DNA of 64,000 bases, taken from positions 1 through 64,000 of the forward strand of contig CACZHP010000015.1 in the NCBI GenBank assembly GCA_902780935.1. The letters run 5' to 3'. Position numbers and translations under genes: made by a program. This document shows positions 6,570-63,180 of the stretch, piece by piece (position 1 is the first letter of the stretch; every line of letters starts with the position of its first letter). The notes beneath the pieces are model-generated. The model saw only the letters and a program-made list of their open reading frames with translations. It was not told where the DNA came from and searched no databases. The DNA is from an uncultured Bacteroidia bacterium. GTDB taxonomy: Bacteria; Bacteroidota; Bacteroidia; Bacteroidales; UBA932.

Positions 6570-7025
6570 ATGGCGGCTAAGAAAGAACATAAGACAGAGA
6601 TTAAGAACAAGAAGGCCTCGTTTGACTACGAGTTTCTGGAGACTTATGAGGCCGGGATAGTGCTGGTAGGGACGGAGATCAAGTCCATCAGGATGGGCAA
6701 GGTCTCCTTGGTGGACTCGTTCTGTTATTTCGTGGGTAACGAGTTGTTTGTCAAGGGAATGAATGTCGCCAAGTATTTCTGGGGATCCTGGGGCCAGCAT
6801 GAGCCCATGAGAGACCGCAAGCTGCTTCTCACGAAAAGGGAGTTGCGGCACCTGCACCAGGCTGTCAAGGAAAAGGGCTTGACGATAGTCGCGGTCAAAC
6901 TGTTCATCAACGACGAGGGTTTCGCGAAGCTAGTGATAGCGCTGGCAAGGGGTAAGAAGGTTTTCGACAAGAGGGCGACTATCAAGGAGAAGGACATCCG
7001 CAGGGAGATGGAGAGGGTCGATTAA
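6570..7025 (+). CDS. smpB: SsrA-binding protein SmpB
   Basis: 151 residues, the normal SmpB length. It binds the tRNA-like part of tmRNA and brings it to stalled ribosomes for trans-translation. Recognised from [20 protein letters not shown], the [14 protein letters not shown] strand, and the basic C-terminal tail [15 protein letters not shown] needed for decoding-centre binding. First gene of the plus-strand operon smpB-miaA-purE-TPR; miaA starts one base after its stop. No tmRNA gene lies in this window. Confidence 0.97.
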
Positions 7026-7026
7026 T

Positions 7027-8172
7027 ATGGCAAGGAACCGTCAGAACAAGCTTCGGGAGGCGATACCCATCCCTCCCCCGGCTCCCCTTCCGGATCCGGA
7101 AGTTATTGACGTGCAGTCCATTCTCAACGAATATCTCTCCGGCAATATCGACCTTATCGTCGTCCTCGGTCCGACAGCCTCCGGCAAGACTAAATACACC
7201 GTCAATCTTGCCCGTCGAATAACCTCTCTCGCCGCTAGTGACAGCCGGCTACAGCCGGCGCGCCGAAGTGAGGAGCGATGCGACGAACGGGAGGCGCAGG
7301 GCCCCGAAGCCGAAGGCTTTGGGAACATTTCCCCCCACCGGGGGGCCAGGGGGGGTGAATCGCTTGGCTCGCTATGCGAGCCGGAGGGGACACTTCCACC
7401 GGCCTGCGAGATACTATCAGCCGATTCAAGACAGATCTACAAAGACATGACGATCGGGACTGGGAAGGATCTGGAGGAGTACGGCGATGTGCCATATCAC
7501 CTGATCGACATCGTGCCGGCGGGAACCAGATTTGATCTATACCAGTGGCAGGAGGCCTTTGAGAAGGCTTACAAAGACATCAGGGAAAGGGGCCAGATCC
7601 CGATCCTGTGCGGAGGCACCGGTCTTTACATAGAGGCCGCCACTTGCGGATATTCCTTGCCCCAAGTTCCACCAAACGAGGAACTTCGGCCCGAATTGGA
7701 ACAGTACCCTACCGAGGAACTGATAAAGAGACTCGCCGACCTCGGACCTCTTCCCCCTGAAGGAGTCCTCCAAAGCAAAAGGAGAGTGATTAGGGCGCTG
7801 GAAGTGGCTCTGTATGAGAAAGATCACCCGATCCGGAAAAGCGGGTATCTCCCCAAAAAGCCATATTACATCGGCACCCTCGTTGACCGGGAGGAAAGGA
7901 ACGCCCGTATAGATTCCCGTCTTGACGCGAGGCTTCAAAACGGCCTTGTCGAAGAGGTGAAGGGCTTGCTGGACAGTGGCATACGCGCAGAGGACCTGAT
8001 GTACTACGGTCTTGAGTACAAGTTCGTGACTCAGTATGTGCTGGGGATCCTAAGTTATGAGGAGATGAGGCTCCTTCTGGGAAATGCCATCCACCAGTTC
8101 GCCAAACGGCAGATGACCTGGTTCCGAGGCATGGAAAAAGACGGAATCAAAATCCATTGGACAAACGTTTAA
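7027..8172 (+). CDS. miaA: tRNA dimethylallyltransferase MiaA with an in-frame insertion
   Basis: Transfers a dimethylallyl group to N6 of A37 in tRNAs reading UNN codons. The P-loop GPTASGKT is at residues 48-55, the SADSRQIY substrate motif at about 131-138, and the C-terminus keeps the family pattern QFAKRQMTWFRG. At 381 residues it is longer than the usual 300-315. There is an N-terminal extension of about 40 residues rich in Pro, and about 62 residues (66-127) sit between the P-loop helix and the DSRQ strand, where homologues need only a few residues. The insert is low-complexity and charged, and is encoded by a GC-rich palindromic stretch (7222-7407). The frame stays open and all key motifs survive, so the enzyme may still work with a surface loop, but this is inference. 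Confidence 0.93.
   Translation: MARNRQNKLREAIPIPPPAPLPDPEVIDVQSILNEYLSGNIDLIVVLGPTASGKTKYTVNLARRITSLAASDSRLQPARRSEERCDEREAQGPEAEGFGNISPHRGARGGESLGSLCEPEGTLPPACEILSADSRQIYKDMTIGTGKDLEEYGDVPYHLIDIVPAGTRFDLYQWQEAFEKAYKDIRERGQIPILCGGTGLYIEAATCGYSLPQVPPNEELRPELEQYPTEELIKRLADLGPLPPEGVLQSKRRVIRALEVALYEKDHPIRKSGYLPKKPYYIGTLVDREERNARIDSRLDARLQNGLVEEVKGLLDSGIRAEDLMYYGLEYKFVTQYVLGILSYEEMRLLLGNAIHQFAKRQMTWFRGMEKDGIKIHWTNV
7222..7407 (+). repeat. GC-rich palindromic element inserted in miaA (copy A)
   Basis: About 186 bases inside miaA with several hairpins: ggctcgc-tat-gcgagcc (perfect 7-bp stem), ccccccaccgggggg, and aagccgaaggctt. Near its right end is ggaggggacacttcc, sharing the core GGGGACAC with the elements in uppP and between secG and clpB. 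Unlike those two, no long flanking inverted arms are complete here. The length is a multiple of three and no stop occurs in the miaA frame. The encoded peptide (about residues 66-127) does not look like MiaA. Confidence 0.7.
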
Positions 8173-38178: not shown

Positions 38179-38229
38179 AAAAAAACAATTCCGGGACGGA
38201 AGAAAAGAGTATCTTCCGTCCCGGAATTG
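38179..38229 (-). terminator. Strong intrinsic terminator of the ribosomal cluster
   Basis: Perfect 18-bp inverted repeat (arms 38186-38203 and 38212-38229, caattccgggacggaaga and its complement) with an 8-base loop, followed on the minus strand by seven T (38179-38185). It is 18 bases after the rplQ stop. Confidence 0.92.
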
Positions 38230-50506: not shown

Positions 50507-51409
50507 TCAAGCGAAGATGAATATCAAGACGGACACGACAAGGCAATATAGGGCGAACCAGCCGAGTTTGGAACGTCTGACAAGGGCGACCATAGCCTTG
50601 CAGGCGAAGAGGCCAGCCAGGAAGGCCGCGATGAAGCCAACGGCAAGGCAGACCGGACTCAATCCGCCGCCGAGCTCGGCATGGCCGGTCGCGGCTTTCA
50701 AGACATCAAGAGCCTGCTCGCCGATGATGGGGACAAGCACCATGAGGAAGGAAAACTGGGCAATCACCTCCCTTCTGACTCCGCAAAGAAGCCCGGTGGC
50801 GATCGTCGTGCCGGAGCGGGAGAGTCCGGGAGCCACGGCCAGAGCCTGGCCTATTCCAACCACAAAGGCCTGCCAATAGTTGATTCCGTTTCTGACAGGG
50901 CTTTCCCCGACAGGAGAGGTGTCCCCGGAGCTCCCTACGCTTCGCGCCCTATCCGGGTAAATGTCCGCTCCGGGGACACCTCTCCTGCCGGAACGCACGC
51001 CGGAACCGTTTCCGAAGAAATCGGAGAGAAGCAGCAGGGCGGCGGTGACGAGGAGACAGACAGCCACAGTGGTCAGGCTGTCGCCAAAAAGAGCCTCCAC
51101 CTGATCCTTCAGCAGGAACCCGACCAGGGCCACCGGGATCATCGAGACAATGATCTTGAAGATATAGTCCGTCTCTTCGTTATACTTGAACTTGAAGAAT
51201 CCGGAAAAGAGCTTGCATATCGGCTTCCAGAAAACCACGATCGTGCTCAGCACTGTAGCCAGATGGACTGTCACAGTGAAATCCAGGAAACCTTCCCCAT
51301 CGACTCCCAACAGCTCCTTGACGATCATCAGGTGACCGCTGGAGCTGACAGGCAGGAACTCGGTGAGCCCCTGTACTATTCCCAAAAGGAGAGCTTGCAG
51401 CCAATTCAT
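50507..51409 (-). CDS. uppP: Undecaprenyl-diphosphatase UppP with an in-frame insertion
   Basis: 300 residues, about 30 more than most homologues. Recycles the undecaprenyl lipid carrier for peptidoglycan and O-antigen synthesis. Catalytic motifs: QGLTEFLPVSSSGHL (residues 13-27) and APGLSRSGTTIATGL (193-207). Between them, residues about 139-170 (RSGRRGVPGADIYP onward to VGES) replace a short loop and are encoded by a perfect palindromic element (50907-50991). The frame is preserved and both active-site motifs are intact. Encoded between DUF3098 and lpxH. Confidence 0.95.
   Translation of the reverse strand: MNWLQALLLGIVQGLTEFLPVSSSGHLMIVKELLGVDGEGFLDFTVTVHLATVLSTIVVFWKPICKLFSGFFKFKYNEETDYIFKIIVSMIPVALVGFLLKDQVEALFGDSLTTVAVCLLVTAALLLLSDFFGNGSGVRSGRRGVPGADIYPDRARSVGSSGDTSPVGESPVRNGINYWQAFVVGIGQALAVAPGLSRSGTTIATGLLCGVRREVIAQFSFLMVLVPIIGEQALDVLKAATGHAELGGGLSPVCLAVGFIAAFLAGLFACKAMVALVRRSKLGWFALYCLVVSVLIFIFA
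50907..50991. repeat. Palindromic element inserted in uppP (copy B)
   Basis: Arms caggagaggtgtccccggag (50911-50930) and its exact reverse complement (50968-50987), 20 bp perfect, extended by three more pairs after one mismatch. The 37-base centre contains cgcttcgcg. The core gtgtcccc/ggggacac is shared with copies A and C. It encodes about 28 residues of UppP that homologues lack. Confidence 0.85.
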
Positions 51410-63000: not shown

Positions 63001-63030
63001 TGTCCGGCCCCCTTTAGGGTCGGACATTTG
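63001..63030 (+). terminator. Terminator of the secG operon
   Basis: 10-bp stem tgtccggccc...gggtcggaca (one G-T pair) with a 6-base loop, followed by tttg. It is 49 bases after the secG stop. The T-run is short. Confidence 0.6.
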
Positions 63031-63036
63031 ATTATT

Positions 63037-63162
63037 GCCGTCATGAGGGTGTCCCCTCGAAGGACCCATGCCACCCTCGGCACTGTAAGAGGGGGGACCG
63101 GAGCGAAGCGAGCGGTGGGGCCGCGAAGCGGCGGTCCGCGAGGGGAGCACCCTCATGACGGC
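63037..63162. repeat. Palindromic element between secG and clpB (copy C)
   Basis: 23-24 bp inverted arms (63037-63059, gccgtcatgagggtgtcccc and on, with 63139-63162), differing by one extra base. The centre (79 bases) contains gcgaagcgagc and ccgcgaagcgg hairpins and an inner ggaccg...cggtcc pair. The core GTGTCCCC is shared with copies A and B. It is 19 bases before clpB. The 229-base gap holds only this and the terminator. Confidence 0.85.
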
Positions 63163-63180
63163 GAAAAAGGAGATACAGAT

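Follow-up and report, generated by a model that had tools for sequence, protein, structure and literature searches.

A palindromic insert in uppP belongs to a dispersed hairpin family of Bacteroidales with a conserved core, changing arms and probable template switching

The uppP gene of the window (the whole stretch of DNA that was analysed, 64,000 nucleotides) contains an almost perfectly palindromic unit of 85 bases within its open reading frame. This raises the question of whether the unit is native coding sequence, a structured RNA, a programmed switch or an insert of foreign origin and, in the last case, how its two arms come to match each other. The features concerned are as follows:

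50507..51409, minus strand: uppP (BacA/undecaprenyl-diphosphatase), the host of the insert; open reading frame of 300 aa, PF02673 with an E-value of 7.7e-72, solved homologues 5oon and 6cb2
50907..50931, plus strand: left arm of the hairpin, 25 nt; 21 exact pairs starting at 50911; the stem covaries across copies
50932..50966, plus strand: core between the arms, 35 nt in the uppP copy; 30 columns invariant or nearly so among 50 aligned copies
50967..50991, plus strand: right arm of the hairpin, 25 nt; pairs with 50907..50931

The preliminary description had reported that positions 50911-50930 and 50968-50987 are exact reverse complements and that pairing continues beyond them, and both statements are correct. 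The exact stretch is in fact 21 bp long (50911-50931 / 50967-50987), while the arms reach 25 nt (50907-50931 / 50967-50991), with 24 of 25 positions paired, 1 mismatch and a spacer of 35 nt. The 64-kb window has no other exact 20-mer inverted repeat whose arms are 100 nt or less apart. It leaves the reading frame intact, as had also been stated, and a 300-aa BacA/UppP protein (PF02673) is encoded on the minus strand. In the alignment with 5oon, the insert falls between residues 127 and 170 of the query, in a gap separating two aligned halves and located opposite residues 143-155 of the structure. Extra residues are indeed present, but their number is slightly lower than the 28-32 originally proposed: the net gain is 22-26 residues relative to the proteins of G017, G058 and G088 (278, 274 and 274 aa, respectively). 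The single-sequence AlphaFold model of this UppP is poor (mean pLDDT of 45.9) and shows the insert region as largely free of helix.

A uppP match was found in 99 of the 101 genomes of the genus, and the UppP loop was read at 30 fetched loci, from DNA for 9 of them and from the protein alone for 21. Of these 30 loops, 6 contain the core (G000, G106, G049 and G109 and, partly deleted, G020 and G099), so conservation of the repeat at the DNA level does not extend to all relatives. Short loops without the insert, in proteins of 274-278 aa in total, are found in the close relatives G017, G058 and G088 (91% identity across roughly the first half), and this supports the earlier view of an inserted palindromic unit in a variable loop. 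The G106 copy has arms similar to those in the window, with a core reversed in direction. Since the same loop is long with other sequence in several species, it tolerates inserts; these include G004, G063, G064 and G043 (loci L011, L119, L117 and L121), and the insert in G004 resembles, by eye, a translated short repeat from another family. The loop is too diverged among relatives for the pre-insertion site in uppP to be placed base-exactly.

A search of the window's own genome with a 101-base region gave 17 matches (2 of them arm against arm), most of which involve the core rather than the arms. The copies of this genome share a closely similar core which, in most cases, is flanked by different, mutually pairing arms. 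The family consensus of the core, read by eye, is GCTCCCTRCGCTTCGCGCCCTATCCGGGWAAATGTCCGC (about 38 nt, including bases that are paired in the uppP copy), and the general architecture consists of a conserved core of approximately 35-38 nt and arms of 22-25 bp, giving a unit of about 85 bp. The arm sequence caggagaggtgtcccc, suggested earlier as the signature for a genome-wide search, is therefore the wrong part of the element, as the arms vary and the core is conserved. When the core pattern was used instead (up to 3 mismatches), 8 of the 101 genus genomes were positive, with 13 places in the own genome and 23 in G106, and a reversed control pattern gave 0 matches in the same 101 genomes. A covariance model was built from 50 of 56 copies, a choice that favours pairing, as 5 of the 6 omitted copies are short-stemmed or stemless. 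It matched 25 of the 101 genus genomes (each at least 70% complete), including G106 (26 matches), G000 (16), G019 and G109 (14 each) and G065 (13); the weakest matches (G017 and G074), counted within the 25, are possibly false. The same model gave 0 matches in 293 other genomes from the order (1 of the same genus and 3 of the same family), and both covariance searches used the stricter filters of Infernal, with which weak matches are lost. Variant cores, in which the first mini-hairpin is altered, occur in G019, G044, G053, G061, G111 and others. Among named genome contigs, at least 116 stretches were matched, and the 80 matches listed are all from Bacteroidales or Bacteroidia, many with titles referring to ruminants or the ruminant gut. 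Viral contigs gave 0 matches to the exact pattern, and viral carriage of the family was rejected on this basis.

In total, 181 element places were gathered from the fetched loci. Numerous unrelated genes, as well as some intergenic sites, contain elements of the family, which are present in some genomes and absent from related ones. The 85-base unit of uppP is one copy of this dispersed palindromic insertion family of Bacteroidales, many of them from ruminants, and for this reason it is not a product of chance, in agreement with the conclusion of the preliminary description. That it is native UppP coding sequence, palindromic by coincidence, is a reading to which we give practically no credence: the length of the loop does vary within the genus, but a core of identical type is found in many unrelated genes and the insert is missing from the UppP of close relatives. 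Among the literature matches listed, there was no description of this palindrome family.

The gene miaA had been regarded as a second carrier of an insert of the same kind. MiaA (6940-8169, plus strand) does have extra residues, namely an extra GC-rich stretch of roughly 60 residues that follows the P-loop (window positions 7200-7430). The DNA of this stretch has one other match in the own genome (74% identical), and of the 16 covariance matches of that genome only the uppP one is located on the window's contig; the miaA insert is therefore not a member of the uppP family. Two further repeats were observed in the window. The region 63025-63175, just upstream of a ClpB-like open reading frame (named by eye), contains another, longer hairpin repeat with a different core, whose 25-nt arms are 84% complementary and lie 86 nt apart; there are 30 further matches to it in the own genome. 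The heptamer GCGAAGC, an unusually stable DNA mini-hairpin, is present in this second repeat family and, on the opposite strand, in the core of most copies of the uppP family. The region 38186-38229 is a perfect 18-bp inverted repeat with an 8-nt loop, perhaps a terminator-like hairpin.

An open frame of at least 150 codons is spanned by 145 of the 164 copies with enough flanking sequence, compared with 683 of 730 random windows from the same loci. These values indicate tolerance only, and a preference of the family for genes was rejected. The host genes resemble uppP, ABC-F, DsbD, HemW and FolC (names assigned by eye, except for uppP, which was identified with Pfam). Near some elements (flanks of L043, L045 and L090), TGTCATCCTGAGCGAAGCGAAGGATCT-type repeats appear to be translated within the hosts; the window contains none at up to 3 mismatches.

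Most copies have a stem of about 22-25 bp, which in many cases contains a small bulge approximately 10 nt from the core, while 7 of the 56 copies have little or no stem in the alignment. RNAalifold, applied to 50 of the 56 copies, predicted 13 pairs, of which 8 show changes on both sides, and all four Watson-Crick types occur in 7 of 8 stem pairs. In the 49 (of 56) stems used for counting, 962 of the 1044 ungapped cells are Watson-Crick and the mismatches comprise 15 G-T, 29 A-C and 38 others; the difference between G-T and A-C has a two-sided p of 0.049, with cells that are not independent. Where an RNA is under selection, G-U is expected to exceed A-C on the folded strand. As the modelled strand shows the reverse, pairing seems to operate at the level of DNA or, at most, in RNA of the opposite strand. 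A structured RNA (riboregulator or ribozyme), the stem of which would be maintained by selection, is accordingly a very improbable explanation. The strong covariation and two small conserved hairpins within the core would suit it, and the A-C excess is equivalent to a G-U excess on the other strand, but the modelled strand itself has no such excess and the host genes lie on both strands (81 and 64). Membership in an RNA family was also considered and rejected: the Rfam scan of the window gave no match at the gathering score, and a scan of five loci yielded a tRNA and, at the hairpins, only sub-threshold models of the microRNA type.

Comparison of orthologous sites provided a view of how the elements change. 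Orthologous element pairs were defined, among the 181 places, as those whose two flanks both match. Of 116 such pairs, which are not independent of each other, 60 agree in core direction and 56 are inverted. There were 98 usable pairs. Among the 51 with the same direction, 24 had arms more similar than the 99th percentile for unrelated pairs, as did 13 of the 47 inverted ones, and the uppP copies of G000 and G106 are among these 13. For the inner 9 bp of 44 same-direction pairs, 273 positions were unchanged, 78 had changed in concert, 29 on one side only and 16 otherwise; these counts come from the 135 of 178 elements that passed a prior requirement for 7 or more paired positions among the inner 9, a step that reduces the number of one-sided changes, and the pairs are again not independent.

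Passages of PMC8604942 report that template switching between inverted repeats yields arm homogenisation and spacer inversion, and passages of PMC8794818 report that it creates, mends and maintains stems. Template switching is preferred here because the first two of these outcomes match the data from orthologous sites. In our opinion, the uppP unit is probably an RPE/MITE-like in-frame palindromic insert, in which template switching at a DNA hairpin rewrites the arms and turns the core. In such a mechanism, the inserted hairpin would cause replication to switch template from one arm to the other; the switch would copy one arm over its partner, so that the arms change and nevertheless stay matched, and it would also reverse the spacer, flipping the core. 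Insertions would persist where the protein loop is tolerant and the frame stays open.

Several observations count against this scheme or weaken its support. One subfamily retains an asymmetric bulge of the inner stem, which full arm-to-arm copying should erase, and this speaks against frequent full-length correction of the arms. In the inverted pair L057/L253 the bulge travels with the core, so that the turned piece would have to include the inner arm, or else the two insertions were separate. Many inverted pairs could be explained by repeated insertion at the same tolerant loop. In 34 of the 47 usable inverted pairs the arm likeness does not exceed the 99th percentile, and these may be in-place turns followed by later change, or separate insertions, while some pairs above that percentile (e.g. 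L006/L256) belong to a subfamily with arms that are alike anywhere. A programmed invertible switch (an intragenic inverton) that varies the loops of UppP and other proteins would also predict cores in both directions, and the two directions are indeed about equally frequent at orthologous sites. When the spacer was turned in silico, the host frame remained open in 115 of 145 cases, which is compatible with variation of the loops; at the same time, a turned gene that mostly stays open, in hosts that are mostly housekeeping genes (named by eye), argues against a switch, and we consider this explanation highly unlikely.

A different origin of the matching arms was considered, in which they are partly written at insertion: the core would land with the inner stem, and a target flank of fixed length would be copied in inverted form (e.g. 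by self-primed hairpin synthesis), or the element would land at the centre of a short palindrome. It was assessed at 13 places with a GGCGGCAAAAGGCGCC-type inner arm (from 14 found, after removal of L216, which shares its site with L005). The adjoining 5 bp vary for the most part from place to place, yet they match across the stem at 52 of 65 positions, compared with a permuted mean of 27.3 and with 0 of 100,000 permutations reaching that value; 42 of 55 matches remain without L007 and L278, and pairing ends beyond the 5 bp, positions 13-19 being at chance level. Alignments of occupied and vacant sites gave 4 readable junctions out of 10. The vacant site L237 is a bare palindrome where L080 holds an element, and in L065 (compared with L003) and L252 (compared with L050 and L309) the left flank of the vacant site matches the outer portion of the left arm in the occupied one. 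By eye, no direct target-site duplication was noticed at the 4 readable junctions of the 10.

The matching outer bases and the flanks of the vacant sites thus suggest that part of each arm may derive from the target. On the other hand, the 13 places are not independent, and L007/L081, L006/L256 and L082/L272 are also orthologous pairs, so that in-place change explains part of the signal. The outer 5 bp are identical in L006, L007 and L278; inspected by eye, the vacant site L237 is palindromic, unlike L065 and L252; a vacant site may be what is left after a deletion, and microhomology may account for flank bases in common; and 6 of the 10 junctions are unreadable. For a cysteine-desulfidase-like gene (named by eye), the 26 other orthologues listed lack the family insert at the protein level but are too diverged for base-exact junctions. 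Taken together, writing of the arms at insertion is a possibility that we regard as rather unlikely. A more specific version, according to which heredity is confined to the core (about 38 nt) plus part of the inner stem, is more speculative still; each landing would write the outer arms by inverted copying of a fixed length of target, and later template switching would keep the arms matched and turn the core.

As for the agent of spread, no autonomous element, transposase partner or target rule was found, nor a parent transposon among the families sought (Y1 and RVT_1). New copies might be made by a Y1 (RAYT/IS200-like) transposase working in trans at the DNA hairpin, a weak candidate that would make the family a REP-like one. 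A Y1_Tnp domain (PF01797, E-value up to 0.001) is present in 25 of 25 carrier genomes compared with 51 of 76 others (Fisher p of 0.0003), and most copies form a bulged DNA hairpin that is alike in length and shape. However, carriers also have RVT_1 more often (13 of 25 versus 21 of 76), so the association may reflect mobile-DNA content or ancestry; a reverse transcriptase as the required partner was itself rejected, being found in just 13 of the 25 carriers. Flanking of RAYT genes by family elements gave a mostly negative result, with matches at 2 of 20 Y1 loci (taken from 11 of the 25 carriers), one about 2.8 kb away and the other at 284 bases and weak (22 bits). Other short palindromes are found near approximately half of the 20 Y1 genes, which may therefore serve different repeats, and the foot of the stem is not enriched in GTAG, GTGG, CGTC or TGTC. 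We hold mobilisation by Y1 transposases to be doubtful, slightly more so than the partial writing of arms at insertion. Short palindromes of other sequence, located up to about 250 bases from Y1_Tnp genes, were observed at L189, L190, L191, L196, L201, L204, L205, L206 and L208, and at L191 an identical palindrome is present on both sides of the gene, as is expected for RAYT-type genes with their own repeats.

Among known systems, the nearest in behaviour are the RPEs of Rickettsia, described in passages of PMC10969869 and PMC3733652 as elements of about 150 bp with a conserved peptide, which in R. conorii end in CGTC. RPEs and the uppP family are both palindromic repeats in frame inside unrelated protein-coding genes, but units of the latter measure about 85 bp and combine a conserved core with arms specific to each copy, and they occur in another phylum. 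CGTC was found at 16 of 135 stem feet versus 14 of 128 background windows, i.e. without enrichment, and in variant cores it sits inside the core and not at an end. The family thus works like RPEs and is not filed among them, the distinction being drawn from those published descriptions. REP/RAYT systems (GTAG and CGTC super-families; PMC3733652 and PMC6006769) are similar in that they comprise short dispersed palindromes, some of them intragenic, and the carriers of the uppP family have Y1 genes. They differ in that the REP stems tabled in these sources are 5-13 bp with loops of 2-20, compared with a stem of about 22-25 bp and a core of about 38 nt here, and in that the uppP family is rarely located near the Y1 genes tested and shows no tag enrichment at the stem foot (GTAG in 4 and GTGG in 9 of 135 feet, versus 7 and 12 of 128 background windows). 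Like MITEs, the elements are short, dispersed and bounded by inverted repeats, and about 85 bp leaves no room for a transposase gene. Template-switch mutagenesis, as presented in passages of PMC8604942 and PMC8794818, shares arm homogenisation and spacer inversion with the present data, also in coding genes, whereas those passages treat inverted repeats of yeast genes and RNA genes, and here the process would act on a single dispersed, inserted family. The coding palindromes of Nematomorpha mitochondria (PMC6649704) are likewise perfect inverted repeats translated inside genes, but both of their arms encode conserved protein regions, and the passages that describe them do not mention a shared inserted core.

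The uppP family extends RPE-like in-frame palindromes to Bacteroidales. Its 181 places with matched hairpins, at orthologous and non-orthologous sites in functional genes, make arm rewriting and spacer inversion directly countable. It is also a warning for gene prediction, and another against taking covariation as proof of RNA structure, since strong covariation occurs here without a G-U excess. If the core is the heritable part, the arms are written at landing and template switching then keeps them matched and turns the core, one unit would keep generating new in-frame loops in the housekeeping proteins of a genus.
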